Positions 16,106-35,393 of a stretch of DNA of 50,504 nucleotides are shown piece after piece. Source of the DNA: a virus. Under the pieces are notes generated by a model. The model did not search any database, was not told the DNA's origin, and worked only from the letters and a program-made list of their open reading frames with translations. Location of the stretch: positions 1 through 50,504 of the IMG/VR virus record IMGVR_UViG_3300046330_000113. The stretch is one strand, 5' to 3'. Positions within the stretch are counted from its first letter, which is position 1. Every line of letters starts with the position of its first letter. The translations under genes were made by a program, and so were the position numbers.

Positions 16106-16117
16106 AATATTTATTAA

Positions 16118-16537: not shown

Positions 16538-16584
16538 ATTAAAATACTTTAAAAAAAATAACAATTAAAAAAGCCTCAAACTTA

Positions 16585-16746
16585 ATGGATTACACAGAAT
16601 TGAAAATATGGTTAATAAATATAGCGACATTAACTTTTACATTTACAAACATAGATAATTTTTTAAAATTAACAGCATTGTTAGCAACAATTAGTTACAC
16701 ACTATATAAAACATATTTATTATATAAAACAAATAAAAAAAAATAA
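16585..16746 (+). CDS. Second small membrane protein before the endolysin, holin candidate
   Basis: A 53-residue frame from ATG at 16585 to TAA at 16744-16746. It begins MDYTELKIW, holds hydrophobic segments at about residues 9-22 and 27-41 and ends in a Lys-rich tail (YKTNKKK). The stop overlaps the endolysin start by one base (TAATG), the same coupling used elsewhere in this genome, which strongly suggests a real gene. Short two-span proteins with a basic tail directly before an endolysin are typical class II holins. It might act with, or instead of, the 63-aa protein encoded at 15914. Confidence 0.6.
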   Translation: MDYTELKIWLINIATLTFTFTNIDNFLKLTALLATISYTLYKTYLLYKTNKKK

Positions 16747-17787: not shown

Positions 17788-17798
17788 TTGACTAAATA

Positions 17799-17830
17799 TT
17801 TGGAATTTATAAAAATATAACATATATTTG
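17799..17830 (+). promoter_or_regulatory. Bacteroidota-type promoter before the exonuclease gene
   Basis: TTTG (17799-17802), 20 bases, then TATATTTG (17823-17830) is an exact match to the Bacteroidota primary-sigma consensus TTTG-N19/21-TAnnTTTG. It lies in the only gap of this cluster, 24 bases before the ATG at 17854. It implies that the exonuclease is expressed separately from the lysis genes. Confidence 0.7.
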
Positions 17831-17853
17831 TTCTAATTATAAAAAAATAATAT

Positions 17854-18771
17854 ATGACTGGGGAAAAAATTGAAGAATTTTTAAAAAATAAAAAAGGTTA
17901 TTTAAAAGAAGGTGGGGGTAGATTGTGTATTAGATTAAATTTAAAAATAAATACTACAAATATTAATTTGTGTAAACAGTCAATTAAAAATGTTAAAAGT
18001 GAATTAAATCCAATACAACCTGTTATTCATAAAACTAAAAGATTATTTTGGGATATTGAAACAAGTTATAATATTGTTAAATCGTGGAGAATAGGATATA
18101 ACTTAAACTTAAATCCTTCCGATATTATTCACGAAAGAGCAATTATTTGTTTATCATATAAATGGCAACATGATGATAAAGTTCACACAATTAGATGGAA
18201 AAATGGATGTGATAAAAATATTGTTAAAGAATTTGTAAAAATTGTGTCACAAGCAGATGAATGTGTTGGTCACAATTTAAAACGCTTTGATGAAAAATGG
18301 TTAATGACTAGGTGTATTAAACACGGAATATTAGCATTACCAAAATATAAAGTTTACGATACTCTTTTAAAAGCTCGTAGTAAATTTAACTTTAATAGTA
18401 ATAAATTAGATTATATTGCTGAATTTTTAGGACTTGGTAACAAACTTAAACATAGAGGATTAGATATGTGGGATGATATCATCCTTCGTAAATGTCCTTT
18501 AGCAATGGAAGAAATGGTTAATTATTGTGAAAAAGATGTTGTATTAACTGAAGAAGTGTACAATAAACTAGTAACTTACGATTTACCAACAATGCATGTG
18601 GGGGTTATGAATGGATTATCAAAAGATACATCACCATACACAGGAAGTTCTAATATTTCTCTTCATAAAACAGAAGTATCTTCTTTAGGAACAATTAAAA
18701 GAATGATGAAATGTAACGATACTGATAGATATTTTTATTTATCAAACACAGAATATTTAAAAATAATATAA
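17854..18771 (+). CDS. DEDDy-type 3'-5' exonuclease
   Basis: A 305-aa protein with an RNase H-fold exonuclease core at residues ~62-240. Exo I is DIET (Asp67, Glu69), Exo II is GHNLKRFD (Asn141, Asp146) and Exo III is YCEKD (Tyr224, Asp228). The Tyr marks the DEDDy subclass used for proofreading and related trimming. The N-terminal ~60 residues (KKGYLKEGGGRL) resemble a small DNA-contact region, and the C-terminal ~65 residues contain two Cys-free basic stretches of unknown role. It would degrade DNA or RNA from the 3' end. It has its own promoter and terminator inside a run of structural genes, which is unusual and suggests insertion. It is not linked to a polymerase in this window. Confidence 0.8.
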   Translation: MTGEKIEEFLKNKKGYLKEGGGRLCIRLNLKINTTNINLCKQSIKNVKSELNPIQPVIHKTKRLFWDIETSYNIVKSWRIGYNLNLNPSDIIHERAIICLSYKWQHDDKVHTIRWKNGCDKNIVKEFVKIVSQADECVGHNLKRFDEKWLMTRCIKHGILALPKYKVYDTLLKARSKFNFNSNKLDYIAEFLGLGNKLKHRGLDMWDDIILRKCPLAMEEMVNYCEKDVVLTEEVYNKLVTYDLPTMHVGVMNGLSKDTSPYTGSSNISLHKTEVSSLGTIKRMMKCNDTDRYFYLSNTEYLKII

Positions 18772-18783
18772 AACAAACACAAA

Positions 18784-18811
18784 CCCTCTCTTACAACAGA
18801 GGGGGTTTTTT
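18784..18811 (+). terminator. Intrinsic terminator after the exonuclease gene
   Basis: CCCTCT (18784-18789) pairs with AGAGGG (18798-18803); flanking A's and the GGTTTTTT tail can extend the stem with a small bulge. It lies 12 bases after the exonuclease stop, directly before the homing endonuclease gene. Confidence 0.75.
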
Positions 18812-18822
18812 AATTTTAAAAT

Positions 18823-19599
18823 ATGGAACAAAATATATCGTACGTATATAGACATAGAAGACTAGACAATAATCAAATATTTTATATTGGTATTGGTCGA
18901 GCTAAAAATTATGGACGAGCATATGTAAAAACTAAAAGAAGTAATTTTTGGAATAATATTATTAATAAAACAAAATATCAAATTGAAATAATTGCTGATA
19001 ATTTATCTTGGTGTGATGCTTGTGAATTAGAAACGTTTTTAATTCAAGAATATGGTAGAAAAGATTTAAAAACTGGAATATTGGTAAACATGACAGATGG
19101 TGGCGATGGTGGATTTAACGCAATTATTTCTATAGAAACAATACAAAAAAGAAGACTTAAAATAATTGGTCAAAAAAGAACAGAAGAATGTAAAAAAAGA
19201 TTGTCAGAATTAGCTACTGGTAGAAAACACTCAGAAGAAACTAAAATAAAAATATCACAAATTCAAATTGGAAAAAAACAATCTGCAGCATTAATAGAAA
19301 AAAGAAAATTATCATTAATTGGTAAAAAAAGATCTATTGAAGCTAAATTAAATATGTCAAATTCTATGAAAGGTTCATATAATTCTAAAGAGGTGTTATT
19401 AAACAATATTAAAACAACAAATAAAAATAGCACTCACAATATTATATCAAAATATAAAGGTGTTTATTGGTATAAAAATTATTCTAAATGGAAATCTAGT
19501 TTAGAAAGAGCGGGTAAAAAATATTTTCTTGGATATTTTGACAATGAAGAAGAAGCTTATTTAGCAAGAGTAAAAAAAATTAATGAAATTTTAAAATAA
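18823..19599 (+). CDS. GIY-YIG homing endonuclease with NUMOD3 and AP2-like domains
   Basis: A 258-aa freestanding homing endonuclease. The N-terminal GIY-YIG nuclease has YVYR (7-10), FYIGIG (20-25) and a probable catalytic Glu at 68 or 70 (CELETFLIQEYG), followed by NMTDGGDGG. Two NUMOD3-like DNA-binding motifs follow, around residues 130-142 (GRKHSEETKIKIS) and 165-180 (GKKRSIEAKLNMS). The C-terminal ~50 residues (YKGVYWYKNYSKWKSSL ... YFLGYFDNEEEAYLAR) match the AP2/ERF-type DNA-binding fold found in some phage and algal homing nucleases. It would cut a genome lacking the insertion and so spread itself. It sits between a terminator and a ring-protein gene whose ATG follows at the next base. 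Confidence 0.85.
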   Translation: MEQNISYVYRHRRLDNNQIFYIGIGRAKNYGRAYVKTKRSNFWNNIINKTKYQIEIIADNLSWCDACELETFLIQEYGRKDLKTGILVNMTDGGDGGFNAIISIETIQKRRLKIIGQKRTEECKKRLSELATGRKHSEETKIKISQIQIGKKQSAALIEKRKLSLIGKKRSIEAKLNMSNSMKGSYNSKEVLLNNIKTTNKNSTHNIISKYKGVYWYKNYSKWKSSLERAGKKYFLGYFDNEEEAYLARVKKINEILK

Positions 19600-20286
19600 A
19601 TGGCAACAACAAAAGAAATTATATATAGTGTTAGAGAATTATTAAATGAGTATTCGGATGATTCTTTATATGATGATCGTTTTATTTTACATTTGTTTAA
19701 TATGAAACGAGAGGTTGGATTACGTAGATTATACGACGATAAATCACGTAATTTTGATAAATTATGTACGCAATCTTTATGTTTATCTCTTAAAGAAATA
19801 GATAAAGGATTGTGTGGTATTACTGCAGATTGTACTGTATTACGTAGTACACAAACTCTTCCCACATTATTAGCGGTTAGAAATAGAGAAACTTTAATTT
19901 CTGTAACTGCACCAATAATGTTGTCAGGTTCTTTTAAGATTATAGACTTTTTTCAAGCTTCTACAATATTAGAAAGACCTTATAGTAATAGTATATATGT
20001 AACTTTTGATTCAGAAGGATATCTTTATTTATTTTCTAAAATTCCAGAACATAAATTGATTAATTCTGTTAACGTAATTGGCGTATTTAGCACTCCTTCA
20101 GATTTAGAAAATTACACAAATTCTTGTAATTGTGAAACAGTTCAAGAATCATGTTTCACATTAGATACAGAATATCCTGCACCAGCATATATTATTGATT
20201 TAGCTCGTGATGAAATTATTAAGTTATTATTAGGTACTAAAGAACAAATTAAACCCGATGAACAAAACAACTCAAGTAGTAACTAG
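19600..20286 (+). CDS. Neck ring / connector protein of crAss-like type
   Basis: A 228-aa protein whose N-terminus holds SVRELLNEYSDDSLYDDRFILHLF, split here as SVRELLNEY and DDSLYDDRFI (residues ~10-31), a pattern I associate with conserved ring proteins of crAss-like phages. The helical N-terminus leads into a beta-rich middle with several Cys (including CNCETVQESC near 168-177) and a C-terminal helix (YIIDLARDEIIKLLL). It starts at the base after the endonuclease stop. The predicted role is a stacked ring in the neck between portal and muzzle. I saw no promoter of its own, so transcription must come through from upstream. Confidence 0.55.
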   Translation: MATTKEIIYSVRELLNEYSDDSLYDDRFILHLFNMKREVGLRRLYDDKSRNFDKLCTQSLCLSLKEIDKGLCGITADCTVLRSTQTLPTLLAVRNRETLISVTAPIMLSGSFKIIDFFQASTILERPYSNSIYVTFDSEGYLYLFSKIPEHKLINSVNVIGVFSTPSDLENYTNSCNCETVQESCFTLDTEYPAPAYIIDLARDEIIKLLLGTKEQIKPDEQNNSSSN

Positions 20287-20791
20287 AAGTTCTAAAAAAA
20301 TACCCGCTCAATTTGGTATGGTGGATTATTATAAATTTTACAATAAAAACTATCCTTATAAAATTGCAAAAATAACATACAACAATATTATAACAGATTT
20401 AAATAAATTTATAGTAGATGAAGTTGTTGATAAAGCAGATACTTTCGCATTACCACATAGAATAGGATATATTAAAGTTGTTAAAAGAAAGCAAGGTGTT
20501 AAATTATTACCAAATAATGTAGTATATAATAATGCACCTCCTGATTGGAAAGCTACAAATGATTTGTGGAAAATAGACGAAGAAGCTAAATTAAAAAAAA
20601 TTATAGTAAGACATAAAAATAGTCATACTGGGGGATATGTTTATAATATTAAACATGATAAATATAATGCTAATTTTAAAAATAAAACAGTATATTTATT
20701 TAAACCTGCTAGAGATTTTAATAGATCTTTAGCTAAAAGAATAAATAATTATTCTAAAGAAAAATATAACGCTCACGAAATCAAATATTAA
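20258..20791 (+). CDS. Conserved crAss-like virion protein, basic
   Basis: A 177-aa Lys/Asn/Tyr-rich basic protein. Its ATG lies 29 bases inside the preceding gene. I kept that start because the residues that follow (VVTRSSKKIPAQFGM) look like a genuine N-terminus; the next Met is at residue 21. A motif IGYIKVVKRKQG (about 69-80) and the C-terminal KPARDFNRSLAKRI are its most distinctive parts. High positive charge may mean contact with DNA or with acidic neighbours in the neck. Context between two ring proteins supports a virion role. I cannot assign a specific function. Confidence 0.5.
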   Translation: MNKTTQVVTRSSKKIPAQFGMVDYYKFYNKNYPYKIAKITYNNIITDLNKFIVDEVVDKADTFALPHRIGYIKVVKRKQGVKLLPNNVVYNNAPPDWKATNDLWKIDEEAKLKKIIVRHKNSHTGGYVYNIKHDKYNANFKNKTVYLFKPARDFNRSLAKRINNYSKEKYNAHEIKY

Positions 20792-20796
20792 AAATT

Positions 20797-21492
20797 ATGA
20801 ATAATTCAAAATATGTATCTATAAAAACAATATTATATGATATATCTAAATATCCTTTTGTTGAAGGAATCCAAGCAGAAGATATTGCAATATATTTAAA
20901 TAGTTTGTTATCTCTTGTAGGTAGTCCTTTTTTGTTTGATAAAAAATATGCTGAAATAAAAATTGTAAATAATAAAGCGTTGTTACCGTGTGATTTAATT
21001 ACTATTGATGGTACAAGATACAAATATAATAATAGTGACGCTTATACAGCTTTAAAATACGCATCAGACATATATCATTCTAAATATCATTGTGTAAATA
21101 GTCCTGATTTAACTTGTGTGTCTGATAACAGTTATTCTATAAATAATGGAGTTATTTACACTTCTTTCTCAGAAGGTATTTTAGAAATGGCTTACCAAGG
21201 CATTGTTACAGATGAAGAGGGGTTACCTATGATTCCCGACAATGCTTCATTTAAACAAGCTTTAAAATATTATATTTTATGGCAATATGGTGAACCTGCA
21301 AGATATAGAAACGAAATTACACGAGATATTTATGAAGATATTAAACAAAATTATTTTTGGTATGTAGGACAAGCGTCAAATTCATTTAATATGTTAACAC
21401 CTGATAGAATGAAATCTTTAGAAAATGGTATTGTTAGACTTTTTCAAAATACAGATTTTCATAGTACTGGATGGCAAACGTTTAATAAATAA
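20797..21492 (+). CDS. Neck ring / tail connector protein
   Basis: A 231-aa protein with an N-terminal helical part (YDISKYPFVEGIQAEDIAIYLN, about residues 14-35, here described in two pieces YDISKYPF and QAEDIAIY), a beta-rich centre including INNGVIYTSFSEG and a C-terminal helical half with FKQALKYYILWQYGEPARYRN. That last type of helix (aromatic, then GEPARYR) resembles those of head-tail connector rings that pack as dodecamers. It lies two bases before the muzzle gene and five after its left neighbour. The family is conserved in crAss-like phages as far as I can judge from memory; the exact ring number is unknown. Confidence 0.5.
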   Translation: MNNSKYVSIKTILYDISKYPFVEGIQAEDIAIYLNSLLSLVGSPFLFDKKYAEIKIVNNKALLPCDLITIDGTRYKYNNSDAYTALKYASDIYHSKYHCVNSPDLTCVSDNSYSINNGVIYTSFSEGILEMAYQGIVTDEEGLPMIPDNASFKQALKYYILWQYGEPARYRNEITRDIYEDIKQNYFWYVGQASNSFNMLTPDRMKSLENGIVRLFQNTDFHSTGWQTFNK

Positions 21493-21494
21493 AT

Positions 21495-24400
21495 ATGGAA
21501 AAACAAATTAAACATAGTTTTAAAGGATTAAATCAAGATACAGGTAAATCTAAATTTTCTAATGAATATTATTTTGATGCTTTAAACATAAGATTAAATT
21601 CTACAGATTCTCAAAAATTAGGTACTATTTCTAATGAAAAAGGAAATGCTAAATTATTAAATATACCAAATATTAATATTGATTACAATGGTAAAATAAT
21701 AACTTATTCCAATAAAATATTAAAATTTAAAAATAATGAAATAAATTATACCATTCAAAGTGGTGATCAAAAAATTATTGCACAATGTCCAACGAGAGAT
21801 TCTATTGTTTTTATTTCAACAGATAATAATGGTTTTGACTGTATTTGGAATTATGATTATACAAATGTAGTATTAACACTATTGTATTTAAGAAATTTAA
21901 ATCTTTCTCCAGAAAATCCGATTCAAATAATTAATAATTTTGAAAATGAAAAAATAGATAAAATATATTGGGTTGATAGTAAACATCAAATAAGATTTTT
22001 AAATTTAAAACATTCTATTTTAAATGGTGACTCTGAAGAACTTATTGATGTTTCACAAAACATATTAGAAATTGTTGGAAAATACAAAATATCTTTTCCA
22101 AATATTGTAGAAATAGTATCTGGAGGTAGTCACACTGCAGGTATGATTCAATATGCTTACAACTTATATTCTTTAAACGCTGCTCAAACTAAAATAGGAC
22201 CATTAAGTAAATTAATATCTTTAGATAATCAGGAATTTGGAGGTGGTGATTTAAACGAAATTGTTAATTCAACACCTATTGTTGAAATCAACAATATCGA
22301 TTCAAATTATACACATATAAAAATATATGCTGTAAAATATACATCATTTAATCAGATACCCTCTATTTCACTAATTGTAGATCAAAAAATACCAGATTCT
22401 AAAAATATACAAATTGCAGATAGTGGTACAATTATAAATACAATTTCTTTAGAGGAATTTTTATTTTTAGGTTCTGATATAATAATTCCAGAAAATATAG
22501 TAAGTAAGGATAGTGTACTTTTTTTAGCAAACTATAAAGAAATTAATTTTGAAATAGATTTAGACACTCGTGCTTATTCTTTTAATAGTTTGCGACAATC
22601 TAAAGTATATAAAGATATAAAATTAGATATTAATTCTGAGCTATTAATTAGTGACGAAGCTCCAGTAATTATAATTAATGATGGAGATTATGATAACATA
22701 GCTTTAATTAAACACGATAGTATTAATTTAAACTATGACTCTTATAAATTTCAAAAAAATGGAACAACTTTAGGTGGAGAAGGAAAGTATTTAAAATACG
22801 AACAGTCTTATATTTTAGAAGTCGAGGCAAGTGATAAAGATAAATATTTTAAAGATGATGAAATTTATAGACTTGGAATAAGTTTTTATAATAATTATGG
22901 ACAGTCTACTTTACCAAATTGGATTGCAGACTTTAAATCTACGGATGGAAATTTAAGAGGAAGATATAACACGTTAAAAGTTACACTTAAAAATGAGTTT
23001 TTTACATGGTTAAATACACAAAATTTTGAATCAGAATACTACAAACCAGTAGGTTATAAAATTCTTGTTGCTGAAAGAACCACAAATGACAAAACAATTC
23101 TTTCTAGTGGTTTATTATCAACAATGATGATTAACGATAAATCTAGTAAAGATGTTCAATATTCAAAACCTGAAGACAAGTTGTATGTTCGTGATAAAGC
23201 TGATACAATTGTAAAAATGCCAAATATTTTAATTAGAAATTACAATCAAGTAGATTTTACAAATGATGTTACAATGCCTTTAAGATCGTCTCAACATTTG
23301 GCAGAAATGAATACAAATAGTACCTCTAACAGTCCATATAATAGTGAAATACAAAGAAGTGGTTACGTTCGAAATGCGGGTACAGCGTATGTTGTTTACG
23401 ATGGTTTTGTAAAAGGTAGATGTTACCAATTTAATTCAATGATGCAAATGTATTCTCCTGAAGTTTTATTTGGTGAAAATATTAAATTCCCAAGTAATTT
23501 AAAGTTAAAAATTAAAGGTCGTGTACAAAACAATACTAATAATTGTTGGGCAAGAAATTATGATAACTTTGTTGAGGGTGGTAATCTTTTAGATGAAGGT
23601 ACTGTTACAGGTGCTATTTCTCCTTATTTTAATCAGTCAAATTCAGTACATAAAAAAATATCGAATCAAGGTGCGGAAGCGGCTTTATATGAAGGTTTAA
23701 TAAGTCAAGCAATTGTAGGTAGTAGGGATCGCTATATGTCAAGAGTTTCACATGTTATGATTGATAGAAAATATGGAGTGAATAATGATTTTACAAAACG
23801 TCATTTTAATTACTTTAAATCTTCGAGAAATACAGAACACGACATTTATAATAAACCTGAAATAACAGAACGTGGTCAAAATGCTAAAAATTACAATAAC
23901 GATCCTAATTATAGATATCAAAATAATTTAATAGATATTTTAACGGATGGTAATGCAGATCTTAAACATGATGGTGATTACAACAGATCCATTGTTTCTA
24001 TTAATAGTGAAAATAACAGATGTGTAACTATTGTTATGGGCTCTAATGAAGAAACATCTCATTATGACAGATTAAATCATGAATATTTAGGATTTGTCAG
24101 TGTTACTGGTGATAATAATGGATTAATTGGAGAACTAGTAAAAACTAAAAATGATATTTATTTATCTGGTATTTATGGTGGAAACAAATACAGTGATAAA
24201 AGACGTACTAATTACGTTGAAGTTGGAGAATATAAAAATATTAACAGTTTAACTCCTACAATTACAATTAATTCTCCAGGAGATACTTTTGTAAATACAT
24301 TTAGCTTTATAAGAATTATAAAAGCAGATAACGCAGTTGTTAAAGATGGAGTTCATGTTTTAGAAGAACTTGTTTCAGTGTTGTGTGAAACTACATTAGA

Positions 24401-25613
24401 TTTAAAAAATAGAAAAGATTTAAGTTTTCAAGAATGGGATACCAAGTTTCAACCTTTATATACGGAATATCATAAATACAATAAAGTTTATTCACAACAA
24501 CCAACATTAATAGCAAAAAGAAATTTAGATTATAACATTAAAAAAATAAATAATTTTGATGCTAATATTATAGCAACTAAGAAAAAAAATGTAGGCGAAT
24601 TAATTGACAGTTGGTCAGATATTTCAATTAATGAAGTAATGACGTTAGATGGTAAATATGGAGCCATAAAAGCAATTAATAATTTTAATGATGAAATATA
24701 TGCTATACAAGAACAAGCTTTAGCACGAATATCTATTAATCCTCGTGTACAAATTCAAGGTAATGATGGTATAAGTGTACAATTAGGTACTGGACAATTA
24801 CTTAATGATTATAACTACATATCTACAACTTCTGGAACACTAAATAAATGGAGTGTTATATCTACACCAAGTGGATTATATTATTATGATTTTTTAAATA
24901 AATCTTTAATGTTGTTTAACAATCAACTTATAAATTTATCAAAAATTAAAGGAATGAATAGTTTCTTTAGTAATAATACAGACTCTGAAACTATAATTAC
25001 AGATAATCCTTTAATAGGTAAAGGTATCACAATGGGTTATGATAATATAAATAATGATTTATTTATTACATTTAGACAATTGAATAAATCTTCTTTTACA
25101 CTTTCATACAATGAGTTGTTTAATGAATTTGTATCTTTTTATAGTTTTATACCTTCTCTTTATGTTAGTAAAGGATTTCATTTTTTAACAATACCCTCAT
25201 TTAGTGAAAATAACGTGTTTAAGCACGGTAATGGTGTTTGTGGTAGTTATTATAATAATCTAAATTTATATCCCTCACATGTAACTTTACACGTAAATCC
25301 AGAAGCTGATAAAGATTGTATTTTCAATAATTTAGAATATAAATCAGAAATATATATTAATGGTGTAGATCAACCCACAAGTACATTAACAAGTATTCAA
25401 ATATGGAACGAGTATCAAAATAGTGGTGAAAAATCTTTATTGTTAAATTCAAATCTATCTCGTAAATTTAGAAATTGGAGAATAACATTACCTCGAAATG
25501 CAAATTCTAGAGATAGAATCAGAAACCCTTGGGTATTTTTAAAATTAAAATTTGAAAATAGCTCAAATAAAAATTTAACACTTCACGATATGTCTGTAAG
25601 TTATACAACATAA
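21495..25613 (+). CDS. Tail muzzle (nozzle) protein
   Basis: A 1372-aa protein beginning with FKGLNQDTGKSKF and YYFDALNIRL (about residues 9-34), a start shared with tail nozzle proteins of short-tailed phages, in which GLN-D and DA-N-R motifs recur. Length and position after the ring genes match the large muzzle protein that closes the crAss-like tail. Most of the protein is predicted beta-rich, as expected for propeller and barrel domains, with a YEAS/DKDKYFKD-type region around residue 440. No peptidase or glycanase motif was seen. It probably forms a hexameric tube that holds cargo proteins until infection. It is the last gene of this unit; a promoter follows 34 bases after its stop. Confidence 0.7.
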   Translation: MEKQIKHSFKGLNQDTGKSKFSNEYYFDALNIRLNSTDSQKLGTISNEKGNAKLLNIPNINIDYNGKIITYSNKILKFKNNEINYTIQSGDQKIIAQCPTRDSIVFISTDNNGFDCIWNYDYTNVVLTLLYLRNLNLSPENPIQIINNFENEKIDKIYWVDSKHQIRFLNLKHSILNGDSEELIDVSQNILEIVGKYKISFPNIVEIVSGGSHTAGMIQYAYNLYSLNAAQTKIGPLSKLISLDNQEFGGGDLNEIVNSTPIVEINNIDSNYTHIKIYAVKYTSFNQIPSISLIVDQKIPDSKNIQIADSGTIINTISLEEFLFLGSDIIIPENIVSKDSVLFLANYKEINFEIDLDTRAYSFNSLRQSKVYKDIKLDINSELLISDEAPVIIINDGDYDNIALIKHDSINLNYDSYKFQKNGTTLGGEGKYLKYEQSYILEVEASDKDKYFKDDEIYRLGISFYNNYGQSTLPNWIADFKSTDGNLRGRYNTLKVTLKNEFFTWLNTQNFESEYYKPVGYKILVAERTTNDKTILSSGLLSTMMINDKSSKDVQYSKPEDKLYVRDKADTIVKMPNILIRNYNQVDFTNDVTMPLRSSQHLAEMNTNSTSNSPYNSEIQRSGYVRNAGTAYVVYDGFVKGRCYQFNSMMQMYSPEVLFGENIKFPSNLKLKIKGRVQNNTNNCWARNYDNFVEGGNLLDEGTVTGAISPYFNQSNSVHKKISNQGAEAALYEGLISQAIVGSRDRYMSRVSHVMIDRKYGVNNDFTKRHFNYFKSSRNTEHDIYNKPEITERGQNAKNYNNDPNYRYQNNLIDILTDGNADLKHDGDYNRSIVSINSENNRCVTIVMGSNEETSHYDRLNHEYLGFVSVTGDNNGLIGELVKTKNDIYLSGIYGGNKYSDKRRTNYVEVGEYKNINSLTPTITINSPGDTFVNTFSFIRIIKADNAVVKDGVHVLEELVSVLCETTLDLKNRKDLSFQEWDTKFQPLYTEYHKYNKVYSQQPTLIAKRNLDYNIKKINNFDANIIATKKKNVGELIDSWSDISINEVMTLDGKYGAIKAINNFNDEIYAIQEQALARISINPRVQIQGNDGISVQLGTGQLLNDYNYISTTSGTLNKWSVISTPSGLYYYDFLNKSLMLFNNQLINLSKIKGMNSFFSNNTDSETIITDNPLIGKGITMGYDNINNDLFITFRQLNKSSFTLSYNELFNEFVSFYSFIPSLYVSKGFHFLTIPSFSENNVFKHGNGVCGSYYNNLNLYPSHVTLHVNPEADKDCIFNNLEYKSEIYINGVDQPTSTLTSIQIWNEYQNSGEKSLLLNSNLSRKFRNWRITLPRNANSRDRIRNPWVFLKLKFENSSNKNLTLHDMSVSYTT

Positions 25614-25645
25614 CGATTTAATATTAGAAAATAACATTAAAAAAA

Positions 25646-25677
25646 CTTGACTTTACATTAAAAAAAGATTATATTTA
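25646..25677 (+). promoter_or_regulatory. Putative promoter before the cargo-protein operon
   Basis: CTTG (25646-25649), 20 bases, then TATATTTA (25670-25677) follows the same plan as the promoter at 17799 with one mismatch in each element. It lies 4 bases before the ATG at 25682, so the transcript would be leaderless or nearly so. It could drive all cargo genes to 47204. Confidence 0.5.
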
Positions 25678-25681
25678 CACT

Positions 25682-26515
25682 ATGGAAAATACTAATGACA
25701 TAGTTTCTAACATTCAACCCCCTTTTGAAACATCATCTGGGGGTTCTTTGAATAAAGAAACACTTACTTCTTATCAAAAGAAAATATATGATAATGCTTT
25801 ATCGTATGCTACAAAAAATAATGATCCATCACCTAAAGATTTTGCTTTAAATGCAGCAACTAAAACACAAATATCTTATGGTAAAAATAATCCATTTGGA
25901 GATTTGGCAACTAAATCACAACCTGGAACTATTAAAAACGGTATTAAATATAGAGATTATTCTACTGTTGAAATACCAATGTCTAAACAATATGAACAAC
26001 ATATACAAGAATTAAATAATCAACAACTTGCCCAAGAACAAGAAATTGATAATTTAGCACAAACACAACAAGTTCCTGAAGAACAATTTGTTCAACAAGA
26101 ATTATCACAAGAACCTCAACAATCACAAGAATTACAACAACCACAAAATAACATACAATTTCAACCACAACAAGCACAAAGTGTTTATGAAAGAAATTAT
26201 TCTGATCAACAAGTTCAAAGTAATAATTCTACACAACAATTAGACGCTATAAATCCAATACAACAAATGGCACACGGTGGTTACACTGGTAAATCATATG
26301 AAGGTGGTGGTAATTTAAATCGTTTTGATGTGGGTGGTACACATGAACAAAATAAAAAGTATTCTGGAATACCTCAAGGTATGGGAGTCAATAATAAATT
26401 AAATACTGTAGAGCAAAACGAGTCGTCTTTTAATATTAGCGGTAAAAAATTTATTTTCTCAAATAGAATTATGTTAGACGGTAGTTATAGAGATCATCCT
26501 TTAAATAAAAAATAA
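25682..26515 (+). CDS. Cargo (ejection) protein, probable N-terminal half of a split gene
   Basis: A 277-aa protein. Residues ~1-110 are hydrophilic with TLTSYQKKIYDNALSY; ~115-195 are Gln-rich (QEPQQSQELQQPQ) and probably disordered. The C-terminal ~85 residues carry Gly motifs AHGGYTGKSYEGGG and FDVGGTHEQN followed by VEQNESSF and KFIFSNRI. That last block is usual in crAss-like and related phages for proteins carried in the virion and expelled with DNA, where I expect it to run on into a FKLP ... KSFADASK region. Here that continuation is found only after the next gene, in the product starting at 27396. The stop codon overlaps the endonuclease start by one base (TAATG). This is best read as the upstream part of an interrupted gene. 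Confidence 0.6.
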   Translation: MENTNDIVSNIQPPFETSSGGSLNKETLTSYQKKIYDNALSYATKNNDPSPKDFALNAATKTQISYGKNNPFGDLATKSQPGTIKNGIKYRDYSTVEIPMSKQYEQHIQELNNQQLAQEQEIDNLAQTQQVPEEQFVQQELSQEPQQSQELQQPQNNIQFQPQQAQSVYERNYSDQQVQSNNSTQQLDAINPIQQMAHGGYTGKSYEGGGNLNRFDVGGTHEQNKKYSGIPQGMGVNNKLNTVEQNESSFNISGKKFIFSNRIMLDGSYRDHPLNKK

Positions 26516-27393
26516 TGGGTAAAATATTAACAAATTTAGAATTTATTAAAAAATTACCAGATAATATTAAAAATAATTACGACATATTAGAAGACTATAA
26601 AGGATGTAAACAAAAACTATTAATAAAATGTAAATGTACAAAATTATTATACAACTGTAATACTGAAAAATTATTGATTGGAAACAAACCTTCTATAAAA
26701 AGTGCTGTTAATAAATCAGAAATATTATCTCATAGAATAAAACAATTACATCCTACTTTAATGTTATTGACTTTTTCAGATAATATTAAAGATTATATTA
26801 TAGTTAGTGATCAACACAATATTCGTTATAAAATATCTCAAGATTCTTTATTACAAGGGAGATGTCCAACTATTGATAGTGCAATATCAAAAAATGAATA
26901 TATTAAAACTAAAGGTAATACTATTCATGATAATAAATATAATTATACTAATTTAGATTATAAAAATGCTAAAACAAAATTATCTATTATTTGTCCAATA
27001 CATGGTGAATTTAAACAGCAATTAAACGCTCACATAAATGGTTCAGGTTGCATAAAATGTGTAAAAAGAAAAGGTGGTTATAATTTAACTAATTGGGAAA
27101 ATACTGCTAAAAATTCCAAAAACTTTGACAATTTTAAATTATATATTATTGAAATCTGGGATAGTAATGAAAAGTTTTATAAAATAGGTAGAACTTTCAC
27201 AACTACTAATTTTAGATTTTATGGTAATACTAAATTACCATATAATTATAAAATTATAAAAGAAATTTTAGGTACGCCACAAGAAATATTTGAATTAGAA
27301 AAATTATTACACAAACAACATAAATTATATTCTTATAATCCATTAAAATTTTTCAATGGTTTAACAGAATGTTTTTCATATATAAATATATAA
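26515..27393 (+). CDS. Putative homing endonuclease with zinc motif and GIY-YIG-like domain
   Basis: A 292-aa protein. Residues ~130-185 hold a HDNKYNYTNLDY segment followed by CPIHGEF (Cys160, His163) and GSGCIKC (Cys179, Cys182), the treble-clef-like zinc unit common in phage-borne homing endonucleases. From ~208 on there is a GIY-YIG relative of the T5orf172/MUG113 type: LYIIEI (209-214), FYKIGRT (221-227, with Arg226) and a Glu-rich helix (FELEKLLHKQH, Glu260/262), then GLTECF. The N-terminal ~125 residues contain further Cys and may bind DNA. It starts in the stop of the cargo fragment before it (TAATG) and ends 2 bases before the ATG of the next fragment. It is in a different frame from both, so it is not an intein. 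Confidence 0.7.
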   Translation: MGKILTNLEFIKKLPDNIKNNYDILEDYKGCKQKLLIKCKCTKLLYNCNTEKLLIGNKPSIKSAVNKSEILSHRIKQLHPTLMLLTFSDNIKDYIIVSDQHNIRYKISQDSLLQGRCPTIDSAISKNEYIKTKGNTIHDNKYNYTNLDYKNAKTKLSIICPIHGEFKQQLNAHINGSGCIKCVKRKGGYNLTNWENTAKNSKNFDNFKLYIIEIWDSNEKFYKIGRTFTTTNFRFYGNTKLPYNYKIIKEILGTPQEIFELEKLLHKQHKLYSYNPLKFFNGLTECFSYINI

Positions 27394-27395
27394 CT

Positions 27396-29246
27396 ATGAA
27401 CACAAATAATAAAGAATTAATAAATCGTTTTAAACTTCCTTTATATATACAAGGAAAATCGTTTGCAGATGCTTCAAAAGCTATATCTGACAAATTTAAA
27501 GGACGTAATGATATGATTTCTAACAATACTAAAAATGAATTGTTAAAAAGATTAGCTGACGCACAAGAGTATTCTAAAACACAACCAGAACAATCTAATC
27601 AAATGGCTGGAGGTGGTTTTGCAGATAGTACTATAGGTCAAGCATTTGGTGATGAATCAACTGGTGCACAAAAAACAGCGGCACTTGGTGCAGGAGTAAA
27701 CACACTTCTTTCAGGTGTAGATCTTGCAAAAACAGCTTTTGGTAAATCTAACATAGACACTTCTGGACAATTTGCATCGACATCTGTAGACTCTGGTGCA
27801 ATGATTGGGGGAGCAGCATTAAAGGGAGCTAGTGCAGGAATGGCATTTGGTCCAATTGGTGCAGGTGTAGGAGCGTTAGTTGGAGGAATTGCAGGAGTAT
27901 TAGGTTCAAATAAAGCTAAAAAAGCTACTAATGAAAATACAAATAATTTTGCTACAGTTACAAATAGAAGACTGTCTGATAATTATTTTGCAATGGGTGG
28001 TGAAATAGATCCTCTTAAAATTACTAAAAATCAATCAATAAACAATTCTATTGTGTCAAATACTAATCCTACTGTACAATCAGATAGATTTAAATATGCT
28101 GTAGGAGAACAAGGTGGTGTACAACATGGTACATCTGGTGAAGCAGGACATTATTTATATTATGGTAAAAAACCTGGAGATGCTGGATTTAATCCAAATA
28201 TAAATAGAGAATTTGTTAATCAAAATGGATATAATACATATATGAATTCACCACAAGGTCAACAATATAGACGTAATTTAAATACACAAACTAATCAACC
28301 TATTGAACAATTAAGTTATGGTGGTGAAATAAATAAATATGTTGATGGTGGACCATTTCCAAAAAACTATAAAGATTTAAATATTTTAAATAATTATGGT
28401 GAAGATCCTAACACAATTCAAAGTATTCAAGATTCTAAAAAATTAGGGTATCACAATTATAAAATTGGTGATGCAGATTTAAACGGTGTTGTAAATAGTA
28501 AAGATGTATTAAAAAAAAAATCAACTAAAACAAATCCTTTAGATTTTTTAAAAAATAATTCAGATTTACTTCGTTATGCTCCAGCAGTCACAAATGCATT
28601 ACAATTAAAAAATCTTAAAAAACCAACAAATGTATCTTTAGATAAACTCGGTAATAGATATAAACCAAATTATGTAGATTTAGCACAACAACAAAATATT
28701 GTTAATCAAGAATTAAATAATGTTAACAGTGCAATACAACAATCTGGTGCATCACAAGGACAATCTAGAGCCGCAATGTTAGCATCACAATTAAATAAAA
28801 CTAAGGCTTTATCTAATGCTTATATGAATGCTGAACAACAAAATGCACAACAAGATGCTGCAGCACAACAATTTAACTTAGGTGTTGATCAAGTTAATTT
28901 ACAACAATCCAATAGTCAACAAGATATTAATGATAGAAATATGGGAGCATATGACACTCAAAAATCTAATTTAATTTCTGGTATTGCACAAAATTTAAAT
29001 GGTATTGGTAAAGAAGAATTTTATAAAAAAGCTCCTGAAAGAATGGGTTTAATATATGATTACAAAGGAAATCCTATAAATGGTGCTTATAAAGATAAAC
29101 AAGGTAACACTTTTAATAAAGAAGGTGTTATGATTTATGACAAAGATGGAAAAGAAGTTGTAAATAAATCAGCTAAAGGTGGTTATCTTAATCAAAATGT
29201 GTTAGATCACATAAACACAATGTATACAAAACGTAATAATAAATAA
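27396..29246 (+). CDS. Cargo (ejection) protein, probable C-terminal part of a split gene
   Basis: A 616-aa protein. The frame is open from 27369, but ATG at 27396 is preferred because it follows the endonuclease stop by 2 bases and begins a sensible MNTNNKELINRFKLP. Residues ~10-60 (FKLPLYIQGKSFADASKAI, split for length) resemble the middle of related single-chain cargo proteins. A Gly/Ala-rich hydrophobic stretch at ~134-170 (AMIGGAALKGASAGMAFG) looks like a glycine zipper that could insert in a membrane, as in pilot/ejection proteins. GGEI and VDGG motifs recur near 200-320. At 359-370 DADLNGVVNSKD fits a dockerin/EF-hand calcium loop. The Gln/Asn-rich part at ~430-530 is probably helical. 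Confidence 0.65.
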   Translation: MNTNNKELINRFKLPLYIQGKSFADASKAISDKFKGRNDMISNNTKNELLKRLADAQEYSKTQPEQSNQMAGGGFADSTIGQAFGDESTGAQKTAALGAGVNTLLSGVDLAKTAFGKSNIDTSGQFASTSVDSGAMIGGAALKGASAGMAFGPIGAGVGALVGGIAGVLGSNKAKKATNENTNNFATVTNRRLSDNYFAMGGEIDPLKITKNQSINNSIVSNTNPTVQSDRFKYAVGEQGGVQHGTSGEAGHYLYYGKKPGDAGFNPNINREFVNQNGYNTYMNSPQGQQYRRNLNTQTNQPIEQLSYGGEINKYVDGGPFPKNYKDLNILNNYGEDPNTIQSIQDSKKLGYHNYKIGDADLNGVVNSKDVLKKKSTKTNPLDFLKNNSDLLRYAPAVTNALQLKNLKKPTNVSLDKLGNRYKPNYVDLAQQQNIVNQELNNVNSAIQQSGASQGQSRAAMLASQLNKTKALSNAYMNAEQQNAQQDAAAQQFNLGVDQVNLQQSNSQQDINDRNMGAYDTQKSNLISGIAQNLNGIGKEEFYKKAPERMGLIYDYKGNPINGAYKDKQGNTFNKEGVMIYDKDGKEVVNKSAKGGYLNQNVLDHINTMYTKRNNK

Positions 29247-29247
29247 T

Positions 29248-31008
29248 ATGAATAGATATAGTCAATACAACGTTGCACAGTATGATCCGTTATCTATGCA
29301 AGAAATAATTGCGGCACCACTTTACAAGCAAAAAGTTTATGATGCTTTAGAAGAAGCACGTGTTAAACAAGCAGAAATGTTTAAGGTTAATCCCTTAGAT
29401 GTTCATACAGAAAGAGCTAAAAAACTTAATGATGAATACATGTCTAAAGTTGATGCGCTTGCAAATTATCAAACTAAAACAGGAGATATACAAGGTTCTA
29501 AAAGTAAATTTTTAGATTTACAAAGAGAATATAAAAAGTTAAATGATCCTATGGGAGAAGTTTCTAAAATTAATAATGCATATGTTGCAGAAGCTGCAGA
29601 AAAAACAAGATTTTTAGAAGCCGCGTCTAAACAATATGGTAGTACACAAGCATTAAATTTATGGAATCAGCATAGAAAAAATTATACAGGTGTTAATGAT
29701 AAAAATGAAATAGTAAATATTGACCCTAAAGGTATTGTAGCAAATCAAGATTTTATGAAAGATGTTAAAGAGTTTCATGATTTAATGGGTAAAACAACAA
29801 GCAGTATTGCTGGATCTGGTTATCAAATTATAGAAAGACCTGAAGGATTAGTAATGGTAAACAGTTCTGGTAAAACAGTTACAAATAATAATTTTGAACA
29901 ACTTAAAAATGCAGAAAAAGCACTAAATTCAAAATGGATACAACCTACAGGAGAAGGTACTTTATTTAATATTGAAGCAGGTAAAAACGCTGAAGAATTT
30001 AAAAATTATTTTACTAACACAATGTATTCACAACGTGAATCTGGTGTTACTAAAGATTCTAATACAAGTGCTACTTTTATTGGTAATAAAACAAATAACA
30101 CTTTAGATGGTGAAAATGTACCACTACCTGAAATTACTGTTCAAAATAAAAATAAAAATTTATTAGAAAAATTAACATTAGGAAATTCTTCATCTGGTTC
30201 ACCAAAATATTTAGATTTAAATACTGGACGTAATGGTAATTCAACAAATGTGTGGACTAAAAATAGTGATATAATACAAGATCCTGATTATAAAGCTATT
30301 GCTTACGGATTAAATAGAAAAAATGGTAAGAATTTTAAACCTGGAAGTATAGAAGAAAGAAAAGCCGTTGTAGAATACTTAACAAATAATACAGGTGTTG
30401 GAATTCAAAATGCAAGAATAGATCCCAATGTGAGTGTTTCAGGAAATTTATTTGCTAATAAATCAATACCTAAGGATAAGACAAAAGCTTCTGAAAATTT
30501 AACAGATAAATTAAAAAGAAATGAACTTTTAGCAGTAACTGAAAATGGAGAAAAAATTGAAGCTGAAGATATGGAATCTTTTACTTACACAGGTGATTTA
30601 ACGGCAGAATCTACAATTACTGCATTTAGCGCTTACGATTCAAGATCTAACAAACTTGCACATACAGGTTATATTACAAAAAAAGATGGAGATAAAGTTG
30701 TACATGTACCTGTATATGTATCTAGAAGTATTAATGATTTTGATAAATCAGAGTATAAAGGAGGTGTTGATTTTTATAATATTGCAAATACTGTAAAAAA
30801 CAGACCTGGAATATATGCTCAATTTAGAGATGATTTAATTTCAGGAAATCAAGGAAAAAATATAAAAGATTTTGAAGTAAAATATAATTCTACTAAAAAA
30901 ACATATGATATTAATTATTACGATGTTAGTAATAAAAAAACTGTAAGTATTAATAACATGGATGAAAATAAATTCCAAGAAGCATTAATTATAAGTAATA
31001 ACAGATAA
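29248..31008 (+). CDS. Internal virion (cargo) protein
   Basis: A 586-aa hydrophilic protein, one base after the previous stop. Residues ~1-120 are strongly helical and charged (LYKQKVYDALEEARVKQAEM, about 26-45), like the N-terminal parts of ejected phage proteins. The rest is mixed with many Asn, Lys and Thr, including GGVDFYNIANTVKNRPG near 507-523. No enzymatic motif, signal peptide or membrane span was found. Its place between the glycine-zipper protein and the three giant proteins indicates that it travels inside the virion. I cannot assign a molecular role. Confidence 0.5.
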   Translation: MNRYSQYNVAQYDPLSMQEIIAAPLYKQKVYDALEEARVKQAEMFKVNPLDVHTERAKKLNDEYMSKVDALANYQTKTGDIQGSKSKFLDLQREYKKLNDPMGEVSKINNAYVAEAAEKTRFLEAASKQYGSTQALNLWNQHRKNYTGVNDKNEIVNIDPKGIVANQDFMKDVKEFHDLMGKTTSSIAGSGYQIIERPEGLVMVNSSGKTVTNNNFEQLKNAEKALNSKWIQPTGEGTLFNIEAGKNAEEFKNYFTNTMYSQRESGVTKDSNTSATFIGNKTNNTLDGENVPLPEITVQNKNKNLLEKLTLGNSSSGSPKYLDLNTGRNGNSTNVWTKNSDIIQDPDYKAIAYGLNRKNGKNFKPGSIEERKAVVEYLTNNTGVGIQNARIDPNVSVSGNLFANKSIPKDKTKASENLTDKLKRNELLAVTENGEKIEAEDMESFTYTGDLTAESTITAFSAYDSRSNKLAHTGYITKKDGDKVVHVPVYVSRSINDFDKSEYKGGVDFYNIANTVKNRPGIYAQFRDDLISGNQGKNIKDFEVKYNSTKKTYDINYYDVSNKKTVSINNMDENKFQEALIISNNR

Positions 31009-31010
31009 TT

Positions 31011-34000
31011 ATGGAAGATGAAGAAATAAATGGAAATTCTGATTTTTTAAAAATAGCACAACACGTTAACAATCCTAAAAGAAAGAAAACAGGTTTATCA
31101 CACTATACGGAACTTTCTCGAAATAAAGTAAATTATAATCTTGGTTCTTATGGAGAATCTAAATATGATAAAGATTTAAATTGGGCATATGAAGTAAATA
31201 CAGATAATATTGAAGAATCTGTAAACGAACACCGCGCACAAAATCAATCTTGGGGGGCTAAAGCATCTGCAGGTATTGCTAGAATAGGTGTAAAAGCAGG
31301 AATAGAAATTGCTAAATTAGCTCCTACAATTGGTGGTATTATAGCATCACCATTTGCTGAAGATGGTCAAGGTTGGGAAACAGCTTTTAATAATGCTGGA
31401 CATAAAGCTTTAAATGCTTTAAACGAAGATATAAATAATGAATTACTTCCAGTATATGTAAAAAAAGCAGTATCTGAAGGTAACTTATGGGATAATTTAT
31501 CATCTATAGATTTTTATGCTACAGAAGGTGCTGATGGATTAGGATTTATGTTATCAATGTTTGCCCCAGGTGCTGCTTTTAAAGCACTTGGTGGTGCAAA
31601 CAAATTTAAATCTTTAGTAGGAGGATTTAGAGCAGGTGAAGAATTTATGTCTGGTACAAATATGATGACTAATGCTGCTAATTTAGGTTTAAAAGCTGAT
31701 GAAATAGGTATTACAATGTTTAATACTTTTGCAGAAGCTGCAGCTGAATCAGGTAGTCAAATGGAAGCGTTTAATAATTATAAACCTGATTGGATAAAAA
31801 GTAAAACTTCTAAGATTCAAAAAGAATTAGAAACTGGTAAAATTAATTCTGAACAAGCAAAATTTAAAATTGCAAATTTAGAAACTGAATTTAATCAACA
31901 AAAAGGTTCTGTAGGAAAAGAATCATTTTGGATGAATATGGGATTATTAGCTGTAACAAACTTTGCAAATACTAAAATGTTAGGACTTGCGGGGGAATCA
32001 GCTACAAAAAAAGTAGGTTCACAAGCTATACATAATGCAGAAGGTAATATTGAAAAATCTATTGCATCGAGAACATTAGTTGATAGACTTAAAGACATAC
32101 CCTCAAAAGCGGGTAAAATGTTTTTAAATGAAGGTTTTGTTGAAGAAGGTACACAATCTACAATTGAAAATTATCTATCGGGAAAAGCTAAACAAGGAGA
32201 ATTAACAGGTGATACATTAAATGATTTTAATTTAAAAGAATTTGGTGAAGAATATGCTGACATGGTTACTACTACTGAAGGACAAAAAGCTATTGCGTTA
32301 GGTGGTATATTAGGTTATGGTTCTGTAGCGGCTAGAAGTGCTAAACAATTAGCATTGGGTAGAACGATTACAGATCCTGAAACAGGTTTACCTACAAAAG
32401 TTAGACAAACAGATGATGGTTTAGAAATAGATAGAATTAATAGACTGTTAGATAAAGGTGTAGAAGCAGAAGCATATTTTGCTCAAATTAATTCTGATAT
32501 TTATAAAAGAACAGAAGAAATAAATCCTGAAACTGGTGAAAATGAATATGAATTAGTAAATGGTAAAAAAGTAATAGATCCTGTAAAAAGAGATACACTA
32601 TTAACAAATATTAAAATCACTGAAGATGATAGTAAAATTTGGGATAAAGCTGTTGCTGAAAATGATGTTGAAACAATAGAATATTTACAACAACTTGCTG
32701 AGGCAAGACTTGTAAACTCTTTTATTGCTGATAGTCAAGACGGTCTAAATATATTATCAGAATACTTAAAAGACAGCAAACTTCCAGAAGATCGTAAAAA
32801 ATCTATTATGGAAAAAGCTAATGTTACACAAAAAGCTCATGAACAATTTATTAGTTATGCACAACCTGTATTAGATCTTAAAAATAAAGACGCTACACCA
32901 GAAGATTTACAAAAATTTTATAATACTCTTGTAAACACTAATAAAATGAATACTATGAAACAATTTGAAGCTTCAAAAGCTTTAGATGTTCACAATAAAA
33001 AAATAAATGATTTATTATCTCAACACGGTTTAGATAGAACTAATTTAGAAAATGAAAGATTACGTTCACAATTAGCAACAAGAGATATGCGATTTGCTAA
33101 AGAACAAGAATTAGAAAATTATCACAATTCTTTATTGGAAGATGTTAAACAAACTAATTTAGATTTGTGGAATCCTAAAAAACAACAAGAAGCGTTTGAT
33201 AAAATTGTTAATGATAATAAAATAACACGTGATAATAATTCTGCAGAAAATGTAGCTAACGCTGATGCTATCACAGAAGCTATTGCTGCAGCACAAACTA
33301 TTGATGAAATTGACGAAAGTATTAATAATACAACCGTAGATCCTCAAACAGCAGAGGTAATAAATCAATTAGCTGATGATAAAAAGAAAGAAATTGTTAT
33401 AGCAGATAAAGAAACTTTAACTAAAAACAATGAAGAAGTTAAAGAAGAAATAAGAAGTAAATATCAAGCTGTTGATTTAGAAGGTATGGAAGATTGGTAT
33501 CAAGATACTGAAACAGGTGAATATGTACATAAAGATGAATTAGATGCATTAAATAATCTCGATAAAGAAAAAGTAATAGATACAAATGAATCTAAACAAG
33601 AAGATTTAACAGATTTAGTTGTTGAAGGGATTGTTGAAGATGAAATTATAGAAGTTCCTATTGAATTGCAAAATTTAGAAAAAGGTGATAAATTACAATT
33701 TCCTGGTGTTGCAACTATGGGTATTGATAGAAGTGGTAATACTTCTGGTAAATTTTCACAATATATTTTAGAACCTTTTAGAAATTTTATTAATAATTTT
33801 AAAAGTGTAAAAGATACAGTTGTAACATTTACTAAACCTGCTTATTTAAATAATTCAAATAAAATAGCATTAAGATATTTAGATGCTAAATATGTAAATT
33901 ATACTAATGAGCAATTAGATTTTATGTATAGACATTTACCATTACAAGTAAATGTTGATAAAAATACATTTACATTTATTGCGTCTTTAACAGACCAAGC

Positions 34001-35393
34001 GTCGCCCGATATAACAACCTATCAAGCTAGAAAACTAATAGTAGATGCTATTATTAAACATGGTTATGAAAATGTAACATCTAAAATACAATATCAAAAA
34101 GGTGGTAAATTAACTTATTTAGATGCAACTGTTGAAAATAAAATAATAAATATTAAAGAATTTGATGGTAAATCAAAAGATGTAAAACTATTTTGGGTAC
34201 AAGATATTGATGGTAATATTATCAATGAAAAAAATACAACTGTTGATAAAAAAGTAGAATTTCCATTTCCATTAAAAAACCCATCTAAACAAAAAGGTTA
34301 TGTATATACAATTATACACTCACCTGGTGGTATAGCAACACCTGTTAAATTAAATGTTAGAAAAATTACTACAGAACAAGCACAAATGATTTACAAAGTG
34401 TATAAAGCACTTTATGATTATAATCAAAATCCTGAAGGAGGAATTAGACTTGGACAAAATAATGCTAAATTAAGTGATTTATATAAAATAGATTCTACAT
34501 TAAAAGATTTAATTGAGAAAAATTTTCAAAGAGAATTTCAATTATTTAAAAATGGTGACCAAACTTCTATAGGTAATTTTATGACATTGTTTATACACGA
34601 TAATATTACATTAGAAGGTGAAACTAAACCTTACACAACTAAATATCAAAATGGTGAAATTATAATTGGTCAAGAAGGTGTGTTATCATTTGAAGGTGGT
34701 AAAATGTCTGAACAAGATTTTTTAGATTTTTTAACTACTAAAAAACGTCAAAATACTAAAATAGAATATCTTACAAGTGATTTTATTAACAGTCAAGAAT
34801 ATAAAAAGTACTTATTAGAAGAAGTAACAAGTATAAATATAGACACACTACAACCTTTTAGTGGTGATATTAATGTTTATGTTGATAGTAATGTTACTGT
34901 TATTAAAAAAGTACAAAAACCGTCCGAAGGTGAGAGGGTAAAAGTATCTCCAGTTAATGAAAATGTTAAAAAGATTATTATTAAAAATGTAAAAATTGGT
35001 AATTTACAAATTACTCAAACAGTAAATAGTAAAGGAAATATAGAAAGAGAAATTAAAAATTTAAAAAATAACAAATCTTTATTAAATATAATTACTTCTG
35101 AGGGTGATTCTAAGTTTTATTCATTACCTAATATTAATGCATTAATTGATAATAAATCAAAAACAATTAAAGATGTTGTTGGAAATATAGATGTTACTGC
35201 AGAACTAAAAGCATTACAGTCTAACCAAACAACATTAGAAAATAATACACAAAACATTTTGATTTCTGATAATGTTAATGTATCTTTGGATGAGAGTTAT
35301 AAAACAGAAGCTATAACTGAAGAAGGATTAAATCAATTAAAAAGTCTTAAAAAGAAAAAAGGTTTAGATAATAAACCACCAACTAAATGTTAA
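31011..35393 (+). CDS. Giant cargo protein 1 (1460 aa)
   Basis: First of three giant genes in tandem. Residues ~80-125 (KASAGIARIGVKAGIEIAKL), ~175-205 (GADGLGFMLSMFAPGAAFKA), ~305-326 and ~420-447 (AIALGGILGYGSVAARSAK) are Gly/Ala-rich hydrophobic segments that could cross or perturb a membrane. Residues ~530-880 look helical and highly charged. From ~890 on the protein becomes mixed alpha/beta with FPGVATMGIDRSGNTSGKF and LFWVQDIDGN. It ends in Lys-rich residues and PPTKC. In other crAss-like phages the first giant gene accompanies the polymerase gene and its product is packaged. I infer it helps pass cargo or DNA through the host envelope. No catalytic site was recognised. Confidence 0.6.
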   Translation: MEDEEINGNSDFLKIAQHVNNPKRKKTGLSHYTELSRNKVNYNLGSYGESKYDKDLNWAYEVNTDNIEESVNEHRAQNQSWGAKASAGIARIGVKAGIEIAKLAPTIGGIIASPFAEDGQGWETAFNNAGHKALNALNEDINNELLPVYVKKAVSEGNLWDNLSSIDFYATEGADGLGFMLSMFAPGAAFKALGGANKFKSLVGGFRAGEEFMSGTNMMTNAANLGLKADEIGITMFNTFAEAAAESGSQMEAFNNYKPDWIKSKTSKIQKELETGKINSEQAKFKIANLETEFNQQKGSVGKESFWMNMGLLAVTNFANTKMLGLAGESATKKVGSQAIHNAEGNIEKSIASRTLVDRLKDIPSKAGKMFLNEGFVEEGTQSTIENYLSGKAKQGELTGDTLNDFNLKEFGEEYADMVTTTEGQKAIALGGILGYGSVAARSAKQLALGRTITDPETGLPTKVRQTDDGLEIDRINRLLDKGVEAEAYFAQINSDIYKRTEEINPETGENEYELVNGKKVIDPVKRDTLLTNIKITEDDSKIWDKAVAENDVETIEYLQQLAEARLVNSFIADSQDGLNILSEYLKDSKLPEDRKKSIMEKANVTQKAHEQFISYAQPVLDLKNKDATPEDLQKFYNTLVNTNKMNTMKQFEASKALDVHNKKINDLLSQHGLDRTNLENERLRSQLATRDMRFAKEQELENYHNSLLEDVKQTNLDLWNPKKQQEAFDKIVNDNKITRDNNSAENVANADAITEAIAAAQTIDEIDESINNTTVDPQTAEVINQLADDKKKEIVIADKETLTKNNEEVKEEIRSKYQAVDLEGMEDWYQDTETGEYVHKDELDALNNLDKEKVIDTNESKQEDLTDLVVEGIVEDEIIEVPIELQNLEKGDKLQFPGVATMGIDRSGNTSGKFSQYILEPFRNFINNFKSVKDTVVTFTKPAYLNNSNKIALRYLDAKYVNYTNEQLDFMYRHLPLQVNVDKNTFTFIASLTDQASPDITTYQARKLIVDAIIKHGYENVTSKIQYQKGGKLTYLDATVENKIINIKEFDGKSKDVKLFWVQDIDGNIINEKNTTVDKKVEFPFPLKNPSKQKGYVYTIIHSPGGIATPVKLNVRKITTEQAQMIYKVYKALYDYNQNPEGGIRLGQNNAKLSDLYKIDSTLKDLIEKNFQREFQLFKNGDQTSIGNFMTLFIHDNITLEGETKPYTTKYQNGEIIIGQEGVLSFEGGKMSEQDFLDFLTTKKRQNTKIEYLTSDFINSQEYKKYLLEEVTSINIDTLQPFSGDINVYVDSNVTVIKKVQKPSEGERVKVSPVNENVKKIIIKNVKIGNLQITQTVNSKGNIEREIKNLKNNKSLLNIITSEGDSKFYSLPNINALIDNKSKTIKDVVGNIDVTAELKALQSNQTTLENNTQNILISDNVNVSLDESYKTEAITEEGLNQLKSLKKKKGLDNKPPTKC

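Follow-up and report, generated by a model that had tools for sequence, protein, structure and literature searches.

Organization of the locus

The window, i.e., the whole stretch of 50,504 nucleotides that was analysed, comes from a crAss-like phage and encodes cargo protein 1 as two separate chains, with an endonuclease gene located between them. The features of the locus are as follows.

25682–26515, + strand: chain 1 of the split cargo protein 1, an ORF of 277 residues matching positions 12–70 of the Pfam CARG1 profile
26285–26470, + strand: N-half of CARG1, the β-strand part, ending in FIFSNRI (HMM built from relatives, 6e-21; strands in the L021 model)
26471–26512, + strand: 14-residue tail MLDGSYRDHPLNKK of chain 1, after the CARG1 N-half
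26515–27393, + strand: apparently free-standing homing-type endonuclease gene, 292 residues (matches to phrog_681 and phrog_559)
26893–27072, + strand: module of the DUF723/treble-clef type, endonuclease residues 127–186, recurring in relatives
27139–27390, + strand: GIY-YIG (T5orf172/MUG113-like) nuclease domain, from the alignment with phage relatives passing the Pfam T5orf172 cut-off
27396–29246, + strand: chain 2 of the split cargo protein 1, an ORF of 616 residues aligning with g069 of phage phi14:2
27405–27617, + strand: C-half of CARG1, the helical part, LPLYIQGKSFADASK (HMM, 2e-24; Pfam positions 75–128; helices in the L021 model)

Chain 1 is composed, in order, of an N-terminal region, a Q-rich stretch, the CARG1 N-half, and the short tail, and chain 2 of the CARG1 C-half, a Gly/Ala-rich hydrophobic stretch, and a C-terminal region with an LRYAP motif. 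An alternative in-frame ATG at 27369 would lengthen chain 2 to 625 residues. The endonuclease start overlaps the stop of chain 1 in the sequence TAATG (26513–26517), and 2 nt lie between the endonuclease stop and the chain 2 ATG at 27396; the ORF listing agrees with the preliminary description of this DNA in the placement of all three ORFs, including the overlap and the gap. The same description had chain 1 ending with GGG/VGG motifs and KFIFSNRI. These motifs do lie near the end, but not at the very end, as FIFSNRI corresponds to residues 257–263 and is followed by the 14 residues of MLDGSYRDHPLNKK.

One CARG1 domain divided between two chains

The Pfam family PF25725 (crAss_CARG1, Crassvirus cargo protein 1) is a profile of 133 positions, of which chain 1 matches positions 12–70 (4e-7; 30.6 bits versus a cut-off of 27) and chain 2 matches positions 75–128 (8.7e-5; 23.1 bits, just under the cut-off). 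A six-frame search with the CARG1 profile gave the same two half matches (1.1e-9 and 5.9e-7) and no further copy within the window, and gave no match in any of 14 control genomes. Judged from these profile matches, the split CARG1 match is far beyond chance. The complementary profile positions bear out the earlier proposal that in relatives a single chain contains both the end of the 277-residue product and the start of the 616-residue product; the cargo-protein domain, which crAss001 and the further gut relatives under study encode within a single ORF, is divided here between two genes. The window shares this arrangement with 24 relatives, in which CARG1 is likewise encoded by two ORFs and not as a single polypeptide. 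Chain 2 is 43% identical to g069 of phi14:2. In a phmmer search against the PDB, neither chain 1 nor the endonuclease had a match and those of chain 2 were all chance matches, and single-protein searches of viral contigs with chain 2 or with the GIY-YIG part gave nothing usable.

In crAss001, gp45 residues 425–552 form a compact portal-bound domain, present in 12 copies on the portal wing, and a contribution to the ejection channel has been proposed for gp45 (PMC10172136). The CARG1 domain of a one-ORF relative (L021) was predicted from 45 alignment rows (pLDDT, 83; pTM, 0.74), and the model has the fold of the crAss001 domain (7qog_M; E-value, 2.4e-7; TM, 0.68/0.75). It consists of β-strands in residues 7–53, a loop, and α-helices from residue 65. 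The FSD motif is located at residues 53–55 of the model, so in the split phages the two genes meet within the loop that joins the strand part to the helical part. In the predicted model, this loop is a plausible cut site that may leave both halves foldable.

The endonuclease gene between the halves

The product of the intervening gene matches phrog_681 (endonuclease; 1.1e-34) and phrog_559, and its relatives are present in 489 phage records, with no clear relative found in the crass-like loci used. By itself it stays under the Pfam cut-off (MUG113; E = 0.015), and it was assigned to the GIY-YIG type through an alignment with phage relatives whose own matches exceed the T5orf172 cut-off. The motifs LYII (209), FYKIG (221), R234, and E262 are recognizable; the FYKIG region and R234 are shared with these relatives, and E262 with nearly all of them, and the set includes the catalytic Arg and Glu. 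The phrog_681 match and the motif alignment bear out the proposed endonuclease with a GIY-YIG domain between the halves, and with an ORF of its own, bounded by the TAATG overlap and the 2-nt gap, it is apparently free-standing. The DUF723-like module at residues 127–186 recurs in many phage endonucleases, with DUF723/DUF4379 found in the phage relatives, and is presumed to be the DNA-binding part; by its motifs, the gene product would be an active endonuclease. The GC content of the gene, 20.7%, is the lowest among the 17 genes checked, and this very low value fits a recent arrival. A second endonuclease gene, matching the HNH endonuclease family phrog_1314 (4.6e-47), lies near the end of the window on the minus strand (49535–50476).

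The same junction in relatives without the endonuclease

Known phages and two alignment-based scans of viral contigs, with duplicate contigs removed by hand, provided 63 sequences with both CARG1 halves, the window included. A single ORF contains both halves in 38 of the 63, and two ORFs share them in the other 25. In all 25 split sequences the junction is identical, at or just past a conserved (I/V)FS, and none of the 24 other than the window has an endonuclease there. The first ATG of the second gene is found −4 to +10 nt from the stop of the first gene in 22 of the 25, with a 1-base overlap (TAATG) in seven and a 4-base overlap in two of these close junctions. The exceptions are the window with its endonuclease (gap, 853 nt), L051 (gap, 3179 nt), and phi14:2. 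Frame offsets of 0, 1, and 2 all occur, which excludes a conserved frameshift.

The preliminary description had held the endonuclease responsible for the split, and had named as evidence to the contrary any endonuclease-free homologues that also have two genes at this point. Such homologues exist: 24 relatives without the endonuclease are split at the same position, among them the nearest one, L048. This part of the description is therefore not supported, and the split is probably older than the endonuclease, which, as far as the comparison of these sequences indicates, probably moved into an existing gap.

Two of the exceptions have peculiarities of their own. In L051, the insert of 3.2 kb at the same boundary (15718–18896) contains a gene for a 957-residue surface-type protein with PARCEL repeats. 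In phi14:2 (L001, 8358–8363), a lone TAA separates the two halves, which share one reading frame, and in the record no ATG opens the second half; the annotated start of g069 falls within the CARG1 domain.

Extra sequence at the gene boundary

In the other split phages, chain 1 continues for 2–550 residues after the CARG1 N-half, and the 14-residue tail MLDGSYRDHPLNKK of the window appears to sit in the same slot. In 13 of the 25 split phages, one or two HExxH stretches are found in this position (L001 8364–10142, which is phi14:2 g070 with two stretches, L041, L080, L085, L087, L092, L094, L098, L103, L106, L108, L110, and L112), with the H, E, and H invariant and a further Glu downstream. These stretches indicate that the gene boundary acts as an insertion slot. 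The HExxH-bearing domains received no Pfam name in a Pfam scan, and the predicted fold gave weak matches only (best E, 0.017), of which the best ranked include metallopeptidases or their relatives (ArdC, PprI, deuterolysin, and selecase).

At the other end of chain 1, the N-terminal parts in L023, L082, L106, L112, and L113 have a lysozyme-type look by eye (HES.G and GGPGRG.YQFE); the two scanned, from L106 and L112, had no Pfam match.

Closest relative and mosaic history of the region

In L048, which is the closest match of the window for chain 1, the start of chain 2, and four flanking genes, the genes of the same two chains are separated by 2 nt and no endonuclease is present. The two chain 1 sequences are homologous over the full length (35% over 277 columns; 6e-33), their match breaking off no more than two residues from a common point at the shared FIFS.RI, and residues 6–76 of chain 2 are 63% identical. 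The N-terminal region of window chain 1 has a clear match in L048 only (1e-13). The window and L048 are sisters in the tree of the four concatenated upstream genes (support, 100; 60% identity) and in the CARG1 tree built on 129 columns (98/90). In the latter, one group (89/90) comprises 24 split sequences together with the one-ORF L021, whereas the split L117 is placed elsewhere and, from its position in the tree, may represent a second, separate fission.

Other parts of the region give a different picture. In the tree of the stabilisation protein the window falls among one-ORF phages (100), and parts of its chain 2 are 76–80% identical to one-ORF phages, indicating that the region is a recombinant mosaic. 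Along 17854–35393 of the window, the middle of the stabilisation protein and parts of chain 2 are most like one-ORF phages, and the flanking genes and chain 1 are most like L048. In an AU test on CARG1, joining the window to the one-ORF phages was not rejected (p = 0.06 and 0.34). Over these conflicting trees we gave the most weight to the complete chain 1 match and the shared chain 2 start.

It was also considered whether the 3′ end of the endonuclease had replaced the original tail of chain 1 (TAACTATGAA versus TAATTATGAA in L048). This is kept as a hint only, because the DNA is about 73% AT.

Origin of the split

It is most likely, with a probability of roughly 0.8, that the split goes back to an old fission of the CARG1 gene, that the boundary so formed served later as an insertion slot, and that the two chains dock jointly. 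An ancient cut in the gene for cargo protein 1 (the gp45 homologue) would have fallen in the loop joining the β-strand and helical halves, and the two genes would have remained neighbours, their stop and start codons in most cases overlapping or almost in contact. The boundary would then have taken up extra sequence, as HExxH fusions to chain 1 in many relatives, as the repeat-protein gene in one, and as the free-standing GIY-YIG homing endonuclease in the window; we infer this order, fission and then insertion. Chains 1 and 2 would presumably be translated in a coupled way, the half-domains may come together during assembly as a single CARG1 unit on the portal, where both chains probably dock together, and both would be ejected with the other cargo. 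The MS/MS annotation of the two phi14:2 chains, g070 and g069, supports the arrival of both chains in the virion. The one-ORF L021 inside the split group speaks against the old fission. An extension of this reading, possible but doubtful, is that the split is a functional design that has spread through environmental crass-like phages, in which the chains would be joined on the portal only through their CARG1 halves and would separate on ejection, as a split-domain latch; chain 1 often carries the HExxH domains and chain 2 the presumed membrane-channel part.

The other explanations differ in the part they assign to the endonuclease. Insertion into an intact one-ORF gene in the window lineage, in the manner of mobE, with L048 and the others split independently, is unlikely, although it agrees with the position of the window among one-ORF phages in the stabilisation-protein tree, is allowed by the AU test, and could appeal to the RIMLD sequence present both in window chain 1 and in the one-ORF relative L077, as well as to the true endonuclease split of gp45 known in cr112_1. 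It is opposed by L048, which is split without an endonuclease and yet shares the full-length chain 1, the flanking genes, and the chain 2 start MN..KELI..FKLP, and by the region of about 200 residues before CARG1, which the window and L048 possess and nearly all of the closest one-ORF relatives lack. An endonuclease might instead have split the ancestor of the whole group and then been lost in nearly all descendants, the window having kept it or been invaded again. This would account for the one shared junction, endonuclease-caused splits are known (PMC2988022), and the trees, blurred by recombination, leave room for it, but with 24 split relatives having no endonuclease at the junction, with stop and start overlapping at many junctions, and with a GC content of the window gene that fits a recent arrival, we regard it as very improbable. 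Scarcely credible is the remaining explanation, that the two ORFs yield one protein by frameshifting, stop readthrough, or a recoded stop codon: phi14:2, with its single in-frame TAA and no ATG opening the second half, has the appearance expected of it, but across the split sequences all three frame offsets occur, with gaps from −4 to +10 nt and of 853 and 3179 nt.

The split of this virion docking domain is real and extends across the clade. A structurally solved docking domain of 12 copies can be encoded as two halves, cut at one fixed point between sub-domains, and among the environmental crass-like phages studied a large proportion show this, providing a natural experiment on the packaging and modification of ejection proteins. 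A literature search of incomplete coverage found no published report of a CARG1 split. The locus also corrects a tempting inference, as an endonuclease between two gene halves need not be the splitter.

Comparison with known systems

CARG1 of the window is shared with phiCrAss001 gp45 (PDB IDs: 7qog, 7qoi, 7qoj, 7qol, and 8ckb) by sequence (PF25725) and, in the model of the one-ORF relative L021, by fold, and the upstream neighbour is a stabilisation protein in both. The domain, divided in the window, is undivided in gp45, a single chain of 842 residues, and the transmembrane stretch of gp45 precedes CARG1, whereas the Gly/Ala-rich stretch of the window comes after it. Cellulophaga phage phi14:2 (Akihdevirus balticus) has a two-chain split (g070/g069) at the same point; both products are annotated in the record as virion proteins from MS/MS. 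It differs from the window in having no endonuclease and in a chain 1 that goes on with two HExxH stretches.

In cr112_1 (Kehishuvirus splanchnicus; L005, 4009–4584), cargo protein 1 is likewise interrupted by an endonuclease gene. Unlike that of the window, it is of the endonuclease VII/HNH type (phrog_1035) and is located in the linker before CARG1. The gp45 homologue of cr106_1 (L011) is intact and is 91% and 93% identical to that of cr112_1 on the two sides, and the cr112_1 junction carries a repeat of about 15 residues; the intact relative with about 90% identity marks cr112_1 as a recent, true endonuclease split of gp45.

Both situations have counterparts among T4-type phages. The insertions of mobE in Aeh1 nrdA and of mobA in T4 gene 60 are thought to have split these genes, and the start of T4 mobE overlaps the upstream stop (UAAUGA) (PMC2988022). 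Like the window gene, mobE is a free-standing endonuclease between two parts of one protein; it is, however, an HNH enzyme, and where a mobE-type insertion predicts an intact target in endonuclease-free relatives, 24 such relatives of the window are split. For seg43(25), an endonuclease of the Seg (GIY-YIG) type, entry into a gene 43 that was split beforehand has been suggested (PMC2988022). As at the present locus, Aeromonas phages 25 and 44RR present a free-standing endonuclease in a split gene and a relative split without endonuclease, although gene 43 encodes a DNA polymerase and not a virion ejection protein, and in 44RR an untranslated insert is given as the cause of the split. By analogy, the window would fit this second T4-type situation, the entry of an endonuclease into an already split gene.
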